Assembly: GCF_000621585.1 (NCBI RefSeq)
Contig: NZ_JHXY01000010.1
Coordinates: 1 to 64,000 of the forward strand
From: [Eubacterium] cellulosolvens LD2006
GTDB taxonomy: Bacteria > Bacillota > Clostridia > Lachnospirales > Lachnospiraceae
Length of the DNA: 64,000 nucleotides
Direction of reading: 5' to 3'
Positions 2,452 to 10,811 of this stretch are shown piece after piece. The notes under the pieces were generated by a model that ran no database searches, was not told the DNA's origin, and saw only the letters and a program-made list of their open reading frames with translations. Both the position numbers and the translations under genes were made by a program. Every line of letters starts with the position of its first letter. Position 1 is the stretch's first letter.

Positions 2452-4200
2452 ATGAGTGATCCATTTGAGAATGAAAACAGCAGGGAATACAATTTGCCGC
2501 TCAGCAGACTTGAGAGAGAACTGTTTTACGACTCTCTGACAGGTCTGCTCTCCCAGTATGCCTTCAATCTGAAGATGGAAGACAAGGTGACCGGCATATA
2601 CACAGAATCCAAAAGCCCGGTATTCATTTTTGCCGACATTGTAGGAATGAAACACATCAACAATGAGTACGGTTTCTTTATGGGAAATGAAGTGATTGCA
2701 AGTGTCGGAAAGGCGTTGAGCAGTGTTTTTTCGGAAAGCCTCTGCAGCAGATACGATAATGATCATTTTCTTGTTCTTACAGAGGACGGGGAGATTATCG
2801 AACGACTGAACAGAATTTATACCATATTACAGGAATTTACGATGCCGGTACCCGTGGTTGATCTTAAGTTTGGCGTCTATTATCAGGAAAAACCGGGAGA
2901 GGAGCCCGCGCTGAACTGCGACAAGGCCCGGATCGCCGAGCGCACGATTCACAGTGATCACCGGAGCAGAATTGCCGTTTATACTGAGGATATGTATGTG
3001 AAGTACATGCGTAGAAATCATGTACTCAGTCATATTCAGGACGCAATTGAGAACCGTGAGATACAGATTTATTATCAACCGATCATCCGTGCCGTCTCGG
3101 TCAAGGTGAGTGCGGTTGAGGCGCTGGCGCGGTGGAACAGCCCACAGGAGGGCATGATATCGCCGGATGAGTTCATCTCTTATCTGGAAGAGGAACATAT
3201 GAGCGCACTTCTGGATATGCATGTTGTGGAGACTGTTCTCCGGGAATTTGAGGACAGGGAGAGGCTTGGTCTGCCGATTGTTCCGGTCTCGGTGAATCTG
3301 TCGCAGAGCACGCTGGAAACCATAGATGTCGTTTCTGAGGTGCGGCGTCTGACAGAGAAGTACGATATTCAGCCGGACTACCTCATGATCGAGATTACGG
3401 AGAGCGCCTGTGTGCGAAATCCTGAGAAACTCAGAGAGGTCATCGACGGCTTTCATCAGGCGGGTTTCCATGTGTGGATGGACGATTTCGGAAGCGGATA
3501 TTCATCTCTCAACGTTTTGCAGAAGTTTAATTTTGACCTGATCAAATTCGATATGAAATTCCTCGAAGATTTCACATATGAGGGCAAGGGCGAGAAGATC
3601 TTCCGGCATATGATCCGGATGGCGCACGATCTGCATATCCATACGCTTGCAGAAGGCGTCAAGACGGAAGAAGAATATGTTTTTCTGAAGAGCATCGGCT
3701 GTGAACGGATGCAGGGATATCTGTTTAACCGGCCAATGCCCCTGGATGGTTATTCCGAGGACTTCCGGAGAGACATCCGGGTGGTCACGGAGACGCTGGC
3801 TGACGCCGAGTATTATGAAAAAATCGGCGAGGTGGACATTGAGAAAGAAGACCTTCCGGAGGAATTAAACGGGAAGCTTCACCGGATCCCGGAAGCTCTC
3901 GTTGAGGCAAGAGACGGGAAACTTATATTTATCCGGGCTAATAAGGTTTATCTGGAATATATGACGTGCGCGGGGATGATCGGTGGTCACACGGATCAGA
4001 GTATGCTGCGTCATGAGTGGTGCGTGCCGGCATCGGAGGCGATTTCCCGGTCGATGGAACTCAGCTGGCAAAAAGACAGCTGGGAGTATTTTGAGGAACA
4101 TAATCCGCAGAGTGGAAGCACGCATACGGGGTGGGTTCGGATTATTGCGGAAGAGGAAGAACGCAATGCCAGATGTTTCCACATCATCATGGAGAAATGA
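2452..4200 (+). CDS. Degenerate GGDEF / EAL domain protein (cyclic-di-GMP phosphodiesterase candidate)
   Basis: This 582-residue soluble protein has a GGDEF-type domain at about 20-175 whose signature is replaced by RYDNDHF (100-106), so diguanylate cyclase activity is unlikely. An EAL domain at about 190-430 keeps the expected catalytic residues: EAL at 223-225, Asn282, Glu314, DD at 344-345, Lys365, Glu401 and Gln421. The substrate-loop YYQP is also intact. A C-terminal segment of about 120 residues looks PAS-like. The likely role is hydrolysis of c-di-GMP, with the dead GGDEF domain as a possible GTP sensor. It is closely related to the protein at 19833-21668, sharing the same architecture. 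No membrane segment is visible. Confidence 0.88.
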   Translation: MSDPFENENSREYNLPLSRLERELFYDSLTGLLSQYAFNLKMEDKVTGIYTESKSPVFIFADIVGMKHINNEYGFFMGNEVIASVGKALSSVFSESLCSRYDNDHFLVLTEDGEIIERLNRIYTILQEFTMPVPVVDLKFGVYYQEKPGEEPALNCDKARIAERTIHSDHRSRIAVYTEDMYVKYMRRNHVLSHIQDAIENREIQIYYQPIIRAVSVKVSAVEALARWNSPQEGMISPDEFISYLEEEHMSALLDMHVVETVLREFEDRERLGLPIVPVSVNLSQSTLETIDVVSEVRRLTEKYDIQPDYLMIEITESACVRNPEKLREVIDGFHQAGFHVWMDDFGSGYSSLNVLQKFNFDLIKFDMKFLEDFTYEGKGEKIFRHMIRMAHDLHIHTLAEGVKTEEEYVFLKSIGCERMQGYLFNRPMPLDGYSEDFRRDIRVVTETLADAEYYEKIGEVDIEKEDLPEELNGKLHRIPEALVEARDGKLIFIRANKVYLEYMTCAGMIGGHTDQSMLRHEWCVPASEAISRSMELSWQKDSWEYFEEHNPQSGSTHTGWVRIIAEEEERNARCFHIIMEK

Positions 4201-4244: not shown

Positions 4245-4559
4245 ATGAAGAAGACAGGAAAAAAACTGGCTTTCAGCGCGGCCATTGCAGCCGCAGCGCT
4301 GAATATCGGTGCGTGTACAATGTTTCATCCGGCAGAGAATGAGGAGCCGGAAGTATACGGACCGCCGAACGACATCTCCGTCTCGGTGAGCTCGGAGGAT
4401 CAGCCGTCATCGGACAGTGAAGACGCAAAAAGAGAGAAGGACGGCGGCAGTAAAGAAAAAAAACAGAAGAAGGCAGGCAGCTCCTCGGAAGACCCTAAAA
4501 GCTACAGCGCGGATAAGAACATGGAAGTCGTCGTATACGGTCCGCCGGAATCGGAATAA
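4245..4559 (+). CDS. Small lipoprotein with two VYGPP motifs (candidate radical SAM substrate)
   Basis: This is a 104-residue secreted lipoprotein. A lysine-rich start and hydrophobic stretch end in the lipobox LNIGAC, so the mature protein begins with a lipidated cysteine. The rest is hydrophilic, rich in Ser, Asp, Glu and Lys, with VYGPP near the start of the mature chain and again at the C-terminus (VVVYGPPESE). ATG 4245 has AAGGGAG seven bases upstream; ATG 4239 is too close to it. The radical SAM/SPASM gene follows after 6 bases. This pairing recalls the rSAM/lipoprotein systems described in TIGRFAMs, where a small lipoprotein with a YG.P motif accompanies a SPASM enzyme. That VYGPP is modified is inference. 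Confidence 0.75.
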   Translation: MKKTGKKLAFSAAIAAAALNIGACTMFHPAENEEPEVYGPPNDISVSVSSEDQPSSDSEDAKREKDGGSKEKKQKKAGSSSEDPKSYSADKNMEVVVYGPPESE

Positions 4560-4565
4560 AAAGTC

Positions 4566-5663
4566 ATGAATATGGAAGAGATTACTCCGGAGTTCATCCG
4601 GAGACTGAAGGCGGAGCAGATGGACCAGCTTTCCGCCTACAGGCAGGACCTTTACAAAAAGCCGGAACTCCGTCAGCTTTTTTTTGAACTGACCATGCGG
4701 TGCAATCTGGAGTGCTTTCACTGCGGGAGCAGCTGCAGCAGCCGACTGGATGACGGGCTTCCGCTGCAAAAGTATAAGGAAATTCTCGATGAAGTGAAAG
4801 AGAATTTCGATATCTCGAAGCTTCTTCTGTGCATCACCGGAGGAGAACCTCTGCTGCGTCCGGATTTCTTTGAAATCATGGAGTACGCGCACAGCCTGGG
4901 TTATCGATGGGGAATGACGAGCAACGGAACGCTGATTACTCCGGAGGTCGCGAGACGTCTCCGCGAGGCCGGTATGCGGACGATTTCCATCAGTATCGAC
5001 GGTCTGGAGAAGACCCACGATGCGCAGAGAAAACGACCGGGATCCTGGAAGGCGGCGATGCGCGGGATTCAGAATCTGATTGACGAAGGCGGTTTTCATG
5101 CTATTCAGGTCACGACAGTAATGAATCATCAGAGCATGGACGAACTTGACGACCTCTATGAGCTTTTTTGCGAAATGGATATTGATTCCTGGCGTGTGAT
5201 CGGTCTGGAACCGATCGGACGCGCGCTTGAGGCGCCGGAGCTGATGCTTACGCGAAAGGATCAGAGGCGGCTGTTTACTTTTATTAAGGAAAAACGTGAG
5301 GAGGAAATGCCGGTTACCTACGGCTGCAGTCATTTTCTCGGGGTTGACTTTGAGAGGGAAGTCAGACAGTGGTACTTCCTCTGTAATGCGGGACTCTATG
5401 TCGCGAGCATCATGGCGAACGGAGATGTCGGCGCATGTCTGGACATAGAGAGAAGTAAGAAGACGGTTCAGGGGAATATTTACGAGAACAGTTTTACAGA
5501 GATCTGGCAGAAGCGCTTTGCGGATTTCCGCAGGCCTCTTTCCCTTCGGAATGAGGAGTGCCGGAACTGCGAATACGAAAAATGGTGTGCGGGAGGATCC
5601 CGTCACAGTTGGGACTATGAGAATGAAAAACAGAGAATCTGCATGAAGGGGACTCTGTTCTAA
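4566..5663 (+). CDS. Radical SAM/SPASM domain protein next to lipoprotein
   Basis: This 365-residue enzyme has the radical SAM cluster motif CNLECFHC (Cys46, Cys50, Cys53), the GGEP motif at 92-95, and a C-terminal SPASM-type cysteine set (CNAG, GACLD, CRNCEYEKWC, and a last Cys near the end) for auxiliary iron-sulfur clusters. SPASM proteins commonly modify ribosomal peptides or proteins by S-adenosylmethionine radical chemistry. It starts 6 bases behind the lipoprotein with a weak ribosome site, suggesting translational coupling. The likely substrate is the VYGPP lipoprotein or another YGP peptide. The exact reaction cannot be told from sequence; a heme or cofactor maturase is a less likely alternative. 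Confidence 0.85.
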   Translation: MNMEEITPEFIRRLKAEQMDQLSAYRQDLYKKPELRQLFFELTMRCNLECFHCGSSCSSRLDDGLPLQKYKEILDEVKENFDISKLLLCITGGEPLLRPDFFEIMEYAHSLGYRWGMTSNGTLITPEVARRLREAGMRTISISIDGLEKTHDAQRKRPGSWKAAMRGIQNLIDEGGFHAIQVTTVMNHQSMDELDDLYELFCEMDIDSWRVIGLEPIGRALEAPELMLTRKDQRRLFTFIKEKREEEMPVTYGCSHFLGVDFEREVRQWYFLCNAGLYVASIMANGDVGACLDIERSKKTVQGNIYENSFTEIWQKRFADFRRPLSLRNEECRNCEYEKWCAGGSRHSWDYENEKQRICMKGTLF

Positions 5664-7626: not shown

Positions 7627-8049
7627 ATGTATTATCTGAAATCGGAGCACAGTTTTGACGCTGCGCACTTTTTGAAAGATTACTGTGGCAAATGCCACAA
7701 TCTTCATGGACACAGATGGAGAGTGATCGTGGAGCTGAAGGGTGAAAAGCTCAGTGAAGAAAAGCAGACCAGGGGAATGATGATCGACTTTTCGGATTTG
7801 AAGGATGCGATCCGGGGGCTCTGTGATCATCTGGATCACTGTCTGATTTACGAGAAGGGGTCTCTGAAGGAGAAGACGGTCGACGCACTGCAAGACGAGG
7901 ATTTCCGGCTTGTGGAAGTGCCCTTCCGGCCGACAGCGGAGAATTTTTCCCGGTACTTCTATGAGGAGCTGGCGGCTCGAAAGCTGCCGGTTCACCGGGT
8001 GGAAGTGTACGAGACGCCGAATAACTGTGCGGCGTATGAGGGCAGATAA
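7627..8049 (+). CDS. queD: 6-carboxy-5,6,7,8-tetrahydropterin synthase QueD
   Basis: This 140-residue enzyme converts dihydroneopterin triphosphate to 6-carboxy-tetrahydropterin, the second step to queuosine. The PTPS fold signature is clear: zinc histidines His14, His27 and His29 (in HNLHGH), the catalytic cysteine in CGKCH, DHLDHC near the middle, and the C-terminal VEVYETPNNCAAYEG. Length is normal for the family. AAGAGGAG precedes the ATG. It is the first gene of a five-gene operon that carries every enzyme from GTP to preQ1. queE begins at the very next base after its stop codon. Confidence 0.95.
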   Translation: MYYLKSEHSFDAAHFLKDYCGKCHNLHGHRWRVIVELKGEKLSEEKQTRGMMIDFSDLKDAIRGLCDHLDHCLIYEKGSLKEKTVDALQDEDFRLVEVPFRPTAENFSRYFYEELAARKLPVHRVEVYETPNNCAAYEGR

Positions 8050-8706
8050 ATGAAGGTGGTAGAAAAATTTATCAGTATCAACGGAGAGGGAACCCGTGCC
8101 GGCGAGCTGGCGGTTTTTGTCCGATTCCGCGGTTGTAATCTCAACTGCAGCTACTGTGATACGATGTGGGCGAATGAACCGGGCTGTCCCTGTGAGGATG
8201 AGACGCCGGAACAGATCGTTTCTTATATTGAAGAGACGAAGGTGAAAAATGTGACGCTCACGGGAGGCGAACCGTTGCTGCAGAAAGAGATGCCGGAACT
8301 GCTGCACCTGTTGGCAGAGAAGAAAGATTTGCGCGTGGAGATTGAAACAAACGGTGCCGTGGATCTCTCCGGATTCCGGACCGGTGAGCAGAGCGTTTTT
8401 ACAATGGACTACAAGCTTCCGTCCAGCGGCTGCGAAAGCGGAATGCTGACGGAGAACTTCAGATTTCTCGAACAAAAGGATACTGTCAAGTTTGTCGTCG
8501 GCAGTCAGGAGGACCTGGATAGGGCAGGAGAAATCATTCGTGAGTACGGGCTGATCGGGAAATGCCATGTGTATTTTAGCCCGGTCTTCGGCAAAATCGA
8601 GCCGGAGCAGATTGTGAATTATATGATAGAACACAGGCTGAACGGTGCGAGGATTCAGATTCAGATCCACAAAGTGATCTGGGATCCGAACCGCCGCGGT
8701 GTGTGA
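8050..8706 (+). CDS. queE: 7-carboxy-7-deazaguanine synthase QueE (radical SAM)
   Basis: This 218-residue radical SAM enzyme contracts 6-carboxy-tetrahydropterin to 7-carboxy-7-deazaguanine. It has the N-terminal [18 protein letters not shown] region, the cluster motif [19 protein letters not shown], and ETNGAVDL, all typical of QueE. The small size, without a SPASM extension, fits the family. It directly abuts queD, with the ribosome site inside the queD end, so the two are probably translationally coupled. Confidence 0.95.
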
Positions 8707-8722
8707 TTGGAGGAAGGAAATC

Positions 8723-9403
8723 GTGATAGACCAGAAGGCAATTGAGGAGCATATCCGCGGAATTCTTATTGCGCTCGGTGACAACCCTGAGCGGGAGGGG
8801 CTGAAAGATACGCCAAAGCGCGTGGCAAAAATGTACGCGGAGGTTTTTGCGGGAATGAATTACAGCAATCATGAGATTGCGGAGATGTTCGACAAGACAT
8901 TTGAAGAGGGTGTCGCCGACGAGGAAGATCATGTCAGTCTGCATATTCCAGAGAACGATTGCGACAGAGAGGATCTCACGGCAGTAGTCGGAAAAACTGG
9001 ACATTTTCCGGCGGTTGGCACACAGGATGATTCCAAACCGGCCAGAGTCGTCGTCATGAAAGATATCGATTTCTTCTCCTACTGCGAGCACCACATGGCT
9101 CTGATGTACGATATGAAAGCCTGCGTTGCCTACGTGCCGAACGGGAAGGTCATCGGCCTTTCGAAGATCGCGAGGGTCTGCGATATGGTAGGAAGAAGAC
9201 TACAGCTTCAGGAAAAGATCGGAAAGGATATTGCGGATATCATCTCCGAAATTACAGGAAGCAAAGACGTGGCGGTCACCATCGAGGGACACCACAGCTG
9301 TGTCAGTGCCAGAGGAATCAAGAAACAGAATACAAAGACATTTACGGCAGAACTTCGGGGACGATTCCGCACCGATGCGGAGTTGCAGTTTTATCTTCGA
9401 TAA
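8723..9403 (+). CDS. folE: GTP cyclohydrolase I FolE
   Basis: This 226-residue enzyme makes dihydroneopterin triphosphate from GTP, feeding both folate and queuosine synthesis. Signatures include the zinc-site SYCEHHM, the later [10 protein letters not shown] cysteine region, and [14 protein letters not shown] at 8723 is chosen because GGAGGAAGG lies just upstream; a longer frame would overlap queE. Its place between queE and queC suggests this copy is dedicated to deazaguanine synthesis, though it may also supply folate. Confidence 0.95.
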
Positions 9404-9420
9404 GAAAGCTGCACCGTTGA

Positions 9421-9499
9421 ATATACAGGGATGTGAAGCCGTATCATACAGACGGCTGTATATAGAAAATAAGATCTTCGCGTAAATCGCGGGAAGATC
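9421..9499 (+). promoter_or_regulatory. Paired hairpins between folE and queC
   Basis: Two hairpins fill most of the 113-base gap. One is ATATACAG...CTGTATAT enclosing GCCGT/ACGGC (about 9421-9462). The other is GATCTTCGCG / CGCGGGAAGATC (9473-9499), ending just before the queC ribosome site. They may tune queC translation or mRNA stability. There is no T-run after either, so they are not obvious terminators. Confidence 0.45.
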
Positions 9500-9516
9500 A
9501 GGATGAGGTGATTGAT

Positions 9517-10200
9517 ATGAAGGCAATGGTACTCAGCAGCGGCGGCGTGGATTCGACGACCGCCCTCGGACTGGCAATAAAGAAATACGGAAAAGAGAAT
9601 GTAATCGCGCTCTCTGTGTCCTACGGACAGAAGCACGATAAGGAGATCCAGGCAGCCAGAGCGGTGGCGGAATACTACGGGATCGAGCAGCTTTTTCTGG
9701 ATCTGAGCACGATTTTTCAATACAGCAATTGTTCCCTTCTGAAACAGTCCACGGAGGAAATCCCGGAGGAGAGTTACTCCGAGCAGATCAGGGAGACCGG
9801 CGGCGAAAAGCCGGTGAGCACATATGTGCCGTTTCGCAACGGACTTTTCCTTTCCTCTGCGGCAAGTCTTGCGCTTTCGAAGGATTGCGGCGTGATCTAT
9901 TACGGCGCCCATGCGGATGATTCGGCCGGCTTTGCCTATCCGGACTGCTCTCCGGTTTTCAATAAAGCCATGAATGACGCGATCTGGGAGGGCAGCGGAC
10001 ATCAGCTCCGCATCGAAGCGCCCTTTGTAAATATGAACAAGGCAGGCGTCGTGAAGCTGGGGCTGGAACTCGGAGTACCCTACGAGCTGACCTGGTCCTG
10101 TTACGAGGGCGGCGAGAAACCCTGTGGAAAATGCGGAACCTGCATCGACCGGGCTGCTGCGTTTGCGGCAAACGGGGTGAAGGATCCGGCGCTGGTCTGA
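9517..10200 (+). CDS. queC: 7-cyano-7-deazaguanine synthase QueC
   Basis: This 227-residue ATP-dependent enzyme turns 7-carboxy-7-deazaguanine into preQ0. It shows the PP-loop LSSGGVDSTTALGLA at the N-terminus, the conserved YVPFRNGLFLS block, GAHADD, and a C-terminal zinc site CYEGGEKPCGKCGTC. ATG 9517 has GAGGTG at good spacing; a GTG three codons earlier overlaps that site. It is the fourth gene of the que operon. Confidence 0.95.
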   Translation: MKAMVLSSGGVDSTTALGLAIKKYGKENVIALSVSYGQKHDKEIQAARAVAEYYGIEQLFLDLSTIFQYSNCSLLKQSTEEIPEESYSEQIRETGGEKPVSTYVPFRNGLFLSSAASLALSKDCGVIYYGAHADDSAGFAYPDCSPVFNKAMNDAIWEGSGHQLRIEAPFVNMNKAGVVKLGLELGVPYELTWSCYEGGEKPCGKCGTCIDRAAAFAANGVKDPALV

Positions 10201-10319
10201 CAGAGGGAAAATTTGCGGGATCGAAAGGTTTGGCCGGTTCATCTGTAGGAACCGGTGGACAGGAATCCGGCGCATAAAATCCGCTGGGGATTCCTGATTA
10301 CAGGAAGAGAGGATTTGGA

Positions 10320-10811
10320 ATGAGCGACGAAAGAGAAAAAGAAGATTTGACCTTACTTGGAAACCGAAATGTGAAATACGCGATGGACTATGATCCGGGG
10401 GTGCTGGAGACCTTTATCAATAAACATCCGGATCACGATTACTTCGTGAAATTCAACTGTCCGGAGTTCACATCGCTCTGTCCGATTACCGGACAGCCGG
10501 ATTTTGCGACAATTACGATCTCCTATGTGCCGCAGGAGAAGATGGTGGAGAGCAAGAGCCTGAAACTGTATCTTTTTTCTTTCAGAAATCACGGAGATTT
10601 TCACGAGGACTGCGTGAATATCATCATGGAAGATCTGATCCGCCTGATGGATCCGAAGTACATTGAGGTGTGGGGAAAATTCCTTCCCAGAGGAGGTATC
10701 TCGATCGATCCGTACTGCAACTACGGAAAGAAGGGAACGAAGTGGGAAAAGATTGCGGAGGACCGTCTGGCGTGGCATGACATGAATCCGGAGAAGATTG
10801 ATAACCGATGA
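10320..10811 (+). CDS. queF: NADPH-dependent 7-cyano-7-deazaguanine reductase QueF
   Basis: This 163-residue enzyme reduces preQ0 to preQ1 and completes the operon. It has the catalytic [12 protein letters not shown] (Cys54, Asp61) and the QueF motif [20 protein letters not shown]. The short single-domain form is the YkvM type, as in Bacillus. The 119-base gap before it contains two hairpins (CCGGTTC/GAACCGG and AGGAATCC/GGATTCCT). No later queuosine gene (tgt, queA, queG) is next to it. Confidence 0.95.

Follow-up and report, generated by a model that had tools for sequence, protein, structure and literature searches.

The 64,000-nucleotide stretch of [Eubacterium] cellulosolvens LD2006 DNA analysed here (the window) carries two adjoining genes, one for a putative substrate lipoprotein and one for a radical SAM/SPASM enzyme (Table 1). 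A preliminary description of this DNA had reported a lipoprotein of 104 residues with two VYGPP motifs beside a SPASM enzyme, and both the open reading frames and Pfam bear this out. The two genes are separated by 6 bases, and 12 bases separate the enzyme gene from a downstream gene named by eye as a DEAD-box helicase. A GGDEF/EAL-like gene, also named by eye, lies upstream of the lipoprotein gene. The signal peptide of the lipoprotein, with its lipobox-like I-G-A-C, was recognized by eye on a loose pattern. This protein has no Pfam match at E<=1, and against NCBIfam it gives two matches of chance level (E 0.021 and 0.082), far under the cut-offs. The gene order EAL, lipoprotein, enzyme, helicase is common to the window and to a related locus, L015, whose enzyme is 88% identical to that of the window. 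Both VYGPP copies are the same in the two loci, with codons changed synonymously, and the linker between the copies differs in length and sequence. Weak matches to the EAL gene came up at two of the other loci and the helicase gene at none of them, most of these loci spanning only about 1.5 kb per side. Beyond the helicase gene, at 7627-10811 of the window, a run of queD, queE, folE, queC and queF-like genes (queuosine precursor synthesis) was identified by eye.

Table 1. Features of the lipoprotein and radical SAM/SPASM gene pair (positions in the window)
Feature	Position	Strand	Evidence
Putative substrate lipoprotein, 104 aa, two VYGPP	4245-4559	+	ORF calling, lipobox-like I-G-A-C
VYGPP copy 1 (EPEVYGPPNDIS)	4353-4367	+	Same residues in L015
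VYGPP copy 2 (VVVYGPPESE, C-terminus)	4533-4547	+	Same residues in L015
Radical SAM/SPASM enzyme, TIGR04133 clade, 365 aa	4566-5663	+	NCBIfam, tree, AF2 model

The enzyme is recognized by the Pfam models Radical_SAM (1.4e-26) and SPASM (2.1e-10). Its cluster motif is C46-X3-C50-X2-C53, and its SPASM cysteines are C254, C273, C291, C332, C335, C341 and C359; the CX3CX2C motif and these seven cysteines are invariant in 19 aligned sequences. The cluster motifs had previously been called full, which holds for these positions but not for the CX2CX5CX3C box: its fourth Cys is absent (CAGGS, residues 341-345) and the upstream C254 (YGC) is present instead. In the AF2 model (pLDDT 90.1), a single long helix (8-31) is all that comes before the first barrel strand (37-41), and no N-terminal RRE is found, unlike in the RRE-bearing RiPP maturases. 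The closest solved folds to this model are SuiB, ChlB, anSME and SkfB, with Z of 25.8, 25.0, 24.7 and 24.3, rmsd of 3.3, 3.2, 3.1 and 6.2 and 313, 312, 310 and 296 aligned residues, respectively; matches within 1 Z were treated as ties, and a common fold is no proof of function. Among family models, the enzyme scores 169 bits with heme b synthase, 165 with NirJ2, 155 with MftC, 142 with TIGR04053 and 135.1 with TIGR04103.

Its best NCBIfam model is TIGR04133 (rSAM_w_lipo), at 288.5 bits and thus below the cut-off of 425. Three plasmid-borne enzymes from Bacteroidota and Treponema pass this model (617.5, 607.9 and 451.4 bits), and their partners pass TIGR04134 (207.1, 43.7 and 138.8 bits). The window enzyme forms one clade with them, with a support of 100/99 in a tree of 19 rows that holds these three passing members. 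Far outgroups had been added to this tree; an earlier one without a far outgroup could not test sister clades. The lipoprotein has no match to TIGR04134 (lipo_with_rSAM, cut-off 39.8 bits) at E<=1, and the whole genome none at E<=10. The kinship with TIGR04133/TIGR04134 proposed earlier therefore stands at the level of the clade and not at that of the HMM search, in which the window proteins fail both models. The TIGR04134 lipoproteins carry CEYGSP (Parabacteroides), CYGMP (Treponema) and CEYGTP (Phocaeicola), so that in these three pairs an xYGxP lies at the lipobox or no more than a dozen residues away. The enzyme clade, an adjoining secreted partner and this motif are shared with the window pair, whereas the window lipoprotein differs by carrying VYGPP twice. 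That YGxP marks the TIGR04133/TIGR04134 pair is a reading suggested by the three pairs and is not part of the models' text. A distant relative from the Clostridia, L043, has a lipoprotein with GCGMYGPPP that passes TIGR04134 (52.3 against 39.8 bits) and is, judging by its sequence, a link between the Clostridia kind and the TIGR04134 kind. Because the window pair fails both models, it is best described as a divergent Clostridia branch.

The recurrence of the motif beside related enzymes was counted at 45 loci: the window, 12 Clostridia relatives (L015-L026), 29 loci from class and family searches (L029-L057) and the three plasmid-borne TIGR04133 loci (L058-L060). The search for relatives had given 14, of which L027 and L028 were left out (radical SAM enzymes 28% and 24% identical), as were L004 (same protein as L015) and L001-L002 and L005-L014 (own locus, G007 again, distant radical SAM enzymes). 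Motifs were counted in sense ORFs of at least 30 residues lying no more than 900 bases upstream or 500 bases downstream of the enzyme. YGPP occurs in a neighbouring ORF in the sense direction at 31 of the 45 loci, against none in antisense. With the wider pattern YG.P or YGP.P, these figures become 39 and 4. The 31 positive loci contain 88 copies in 34 ORFs, with one to seven copies per locus. The residue before Tyr is V in 66 copies, L in nine, I in five, G in three, M and A in two each and D in one; it is mostly Val in Clostridia, and Glu in the two Bacteroidota pairs examined. YGPP is followed by E (38 copies) or P (27), and F is the most frequent residue at +6 (26). Among the relatives, L021 comes from an isolate, Butyrivibrio sp. 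XPD2002, and its motif region reads ACGYGPPEGM. Conservation beside related enzymes, the lack of which would have told against the earlier proposal of a radical enzyme that modifies an exported lipoprotein, was thus found as VYGPP or a variant across Clostridia and as xYGxP in Bacteroidota and Treponema, and that proposal is supported. Three loci without the wider motif show LYAPP downstream (L052), EYAPP and further on MYGSP (L041), or AYGID (L042). At L017, L048 and L056, nothing convincing resembles the motif; a scan for YG.P, YGP.P and YAPP in the surrounding 17 kb (L048) and 14 kb (L056) gave nothing related, and a secreted ORF downstream at L056 has NQPRSGPPEM, in which Tyr is absent. 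The enzyme itself is patchy in distribution: at a threshold of E <= 1e-60, and with the source genome counted in, 2 of 16 genomes in the genus, 17 of 250 in the family and 16 of 391 in the class have it.

A chance recurrence of VYGPP was rejected. In the 3.33 Mb genome, the degenerate DNA pattern for VYGPP (GTNTAYGGNCCNCC) occurs twice on the forward and never on the reverse strand, both occurrences being the window copies, and the same pattern read backwards, used as a control, occurs three and two times. Among 2951 distinct ORFs of at least 60 aa from the window and the loci, YGPP is present in 32, and the carrier ORFs of such length also number 32. Finally, the contrast between sense and antisense YGPP is itself a reason to hold that VYGPP is not due to chance.

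The kind of carrier varies while the motif remains constant: lipoproteins, DUF805 membrane proteins and zinc-ribbon proteins are all found. A loose lipobox pattern is matched by 24 of the 34 YGPP ORFs, one of which (L057) is actually a zinc-ribbon protein. In about ten lipoproteins, seen by eye, x-YGPP directly follows the lipobox Cys, as in VEGC-VYGPP and FNAC-AYGPP. The carriers of L026 and L049 are DUF805 membrane proteins (Pfam 4.9e-16 and 4.5e-16) in which YGPP lies in the tail, and at L041 and L042 the variant has, by eye, a signal peptide on one side and a membrane helix on the other. The motif is located between two zinc ribbons in L053 and L057 (Pfam) and in L024 and L054 (by eye), in the form IYGSP, IYGPMP, IYGPKP or IYGPP, and a signal peptide was not seen by eye in these four proteins. 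The carrier of the motif need not, in short, be a lipoprotein.

That VYGPP, or more generally xYGxP, is what the enzyme acts on is strongly supported by these sequences; that it is modified, and by which chemistry, is a prediction for which the PlpX spliceases offer a point of comparison. TIGR04103 is taken here to be the splicease model, and presumably equals IPR026482. PlpX has been placed in IPR026482 (PMC11002830). Passages of PMC10533398 give XYG as the splicease target motif and MYG and LYG as the natural sites of PlpXY, with a loss of 135.0757 Da and no need for the RiPP leader; for a splicease, this loss corresponds to C8H9NO at YG. The PlpA2-derived splice tags described in them have the form PIRP(L/G)YGLPI and depend on context: FtsZ constructs were accepted in 2 of 16 cases, those with LYG in 0 of 2 (Table 1 of PMC10533398), and a GYG tag succeeded on an Affibody. 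The window lipoprotein has such an XYG, as VYG, twice.

L063, an enzyme from a plasmid of Nostoc, passes TIGR04103 (853 against 725 bits). The Nif11 precursor beside it ends GGRGSIALYGLPPELF, including ALYGLPPELF, and a 71-residue ORF that follows the enzyme is PlpY-like by position and size only. In relatives of the window, the motif reads VYGPPEDF, VYGPPEWF or IYGPPEMF. At the residue level ALYGLPPELF is a close match to these, as are the published (L/G)YGLP tags to VYGPPE(D/W/M)F-type motifs, the link to a precursor being drawn from one genome and those tags. The carrier in the window is a lipoprotein, in which NCBIfam finds no Nif11 leader, and the spacers on either side of the enzyme gene are too short to hold a PlpY-like gene. 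The window enzyme lies far under the TIGR04103 cut-off of 725 bits and is not a member of that family. TIGR04103-type enzymes have the fourth Cys of CX2CX5CX3C, whereas the window family has C254 upstream and no GGC cysteine; four of the five splicease-clade sequences (L062, L063, L064, L069) have a GGC or AGC cysteine and no C254, and L061 has both. The best tree places the window family and the splicease clade as sisters, with a support of only 65/49 and five plasmid sequences on the splicease side, and among the four enzymes of that side that were scanned (L061, L062, L063, L069) only L063 passes TIGR04103. With cores that are alike, but with a different cysteine set and a weak sister position, the window enzyme probably works like a splicease while standing outside TIGR04103.

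Several neighbours of the splicease-clade enzymes were recorded in passing. L061, from a plasmid of Agathobacter rectalis (human gut isolate), carries at 3016-4170 a radical SAM enzyme whose nearest model is TIGR04103 (234.9 bits, short of the cut-off), and a tiny ORF upstream of it ends VMYGTGVRM, a possible XYG precursor. DUF1843 peptides adjoin GDL-type enzymes at L064 (1534-2234) and L062 (2192-2905), the former being GDL-type by record name and the latter scoring 534.9 bits, short of the TIGR03913 cut-off; each of the two enzymes shares 47-48% identity with the TIGR04103 enzyme of Nostoc. Near the N-terminus, three of six DUF1843 peptides have LYGG, PYGV or PYGA and the others MYMA, LYAA or MYAA, and these DUF1843/GDL-type systems may share XYG chemistry. 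At L069 (2174-5865, Tropicibacter oceani plasmid), the splicease-clade enzyme is followed by genes for a trypsin-like peptidase and an M23 metallopeptidase, according to the record names.

The resemblance of the tag to a splicease site suggests that, in the lipoproteins, it probably marks surface proteins for tyramine-excision chemistry. The complete explanation favoured here, held to be somewhat likelier true than false, is that the SPASM enzyme splices tyramine from VYG and so gives rise to a lipoprotein that traps proteases by means of surface ketoamides. The enzyme would recognize xYGxP, present here as VYGPP, in a partner whose gene adjoins that of the enzyme, with neither an RRE domain in the enzyme nor a RiPP-type leader. 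In the cytosol, presumably before export, tyramine would be cut from each V-Y-G and the chain rejoined as by PlpX, leaving alpha-keto-beta-valine followed by Gly-Pro-Pro. The lipoprotein would then be exported and lipid-anchored, so that the cell surface would display two electrophilic ketoamides, which could plausibly act as a tethered, reversible trap for serine or cysteine proteases. Elastase-type proteases like Val before the cut, and Val-ketoamides could trap such enzymes. Spliceotide products are called protease inhibitors in passages of PMC11117315 and in section 10 of PMC10373908, both citing Scott et al. 2022. The 88 copies have seven different residues at X, which therefore varies as it does in XYG splicing. 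A broader and doubtful version would have the anchored surface proteins of gut and rumen Clostridia, Bacteroidota and Treponema backbone-spliced at xYGxP, once to seven times per locus, into surface ketoamide warheads, X setting the protease trapped and the zinc-ribbon proteins forming a side branch with the same chemistry. These zinc-ribbon carriers, with no visible signal peptide, are ill-suited to a surface protease trap.

Motif conservation marks a target and not a reaction, the family-model scores do not pick out spliceases, and the fold matches include the cross-linker SuiB. A less likely reading, though one of appreciable probability, is that xYGxP undergoes another reaction, such as a cross-link of the Tyr ring to backbone or side chain (cyclophane-like), an oxidation or an unknown change at Gly. 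Gly, however, is followed by P, S, T, M or V, and Tyr can be preceded by Gly, so that no fixed cross-link partner is evident; moreover, the TIGR04103-associated precursor has a very similar x-Y-G-x-P-P as its core. One particular cross-link, between Val and Tyr with loss of CO2 as in mycofactocin, appears highly improbable. In its favour, MftC too is a SPASM enzyme whose target is a Val-Tyr pair, the residue before Tyr is V in 66 of the 88 copies, and the MftC model gives the window enzyme 155 bits. The Tyr of the MftC substrate is nevertheless C-terminal (DGMCGVY), whereas that of VYGPP is internal and therefore has no free carboxyl. In addition, X can be G, A, L, I, M or D, and E or C in TIGR04134, and a clade of the window family with MftC was rejected (p-AU 0.0246, long branches being present).

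The location of the motifs in acidic, proline-containing linkers, noted by eye, would also suit a motif for docking or localization, to which the enzyme or some other partner binds without the motif being changed. This reading is considered improbable: up to seven copies per locus, unrelated carriers and the likeness to the splicease core fit a reaction site better. A sactipeptide-like thioether from a Cys two residues before Tyr was rejected, such a Cys being found in 17 of the 88 copies but not in the two of the window; in roughly ten carriers, this residue was seen by eye to be the Cys of the lipobox.

By analogy, the motif would thus point to tyramine excision, a chemistry that the preliminary description did not name. 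In the literature searched, no paper turned up that assigns TIGR04133/TIGR04134 a reaction or joins such lipoproteins with one. Splicing is called widespread in bacteria in reviews (PMC10373908, section 10; passages of PMC11002830), and the chemistry itself would therefore not be new. Novelty is provisional, as part of this may already be covered by Scott et al. 2022 in Chem, the most relevant paper, and by Richter et al. 2024 in Chem Sci, on leader-independent tyramine splicing. If xYGxP is a splice site, a function would be at hand for a family present in at least three phyla, backbone splicing would extend to lipoproteins and membrane proteins, and short leader-free tags would become available for putting ketoamides in proteins.
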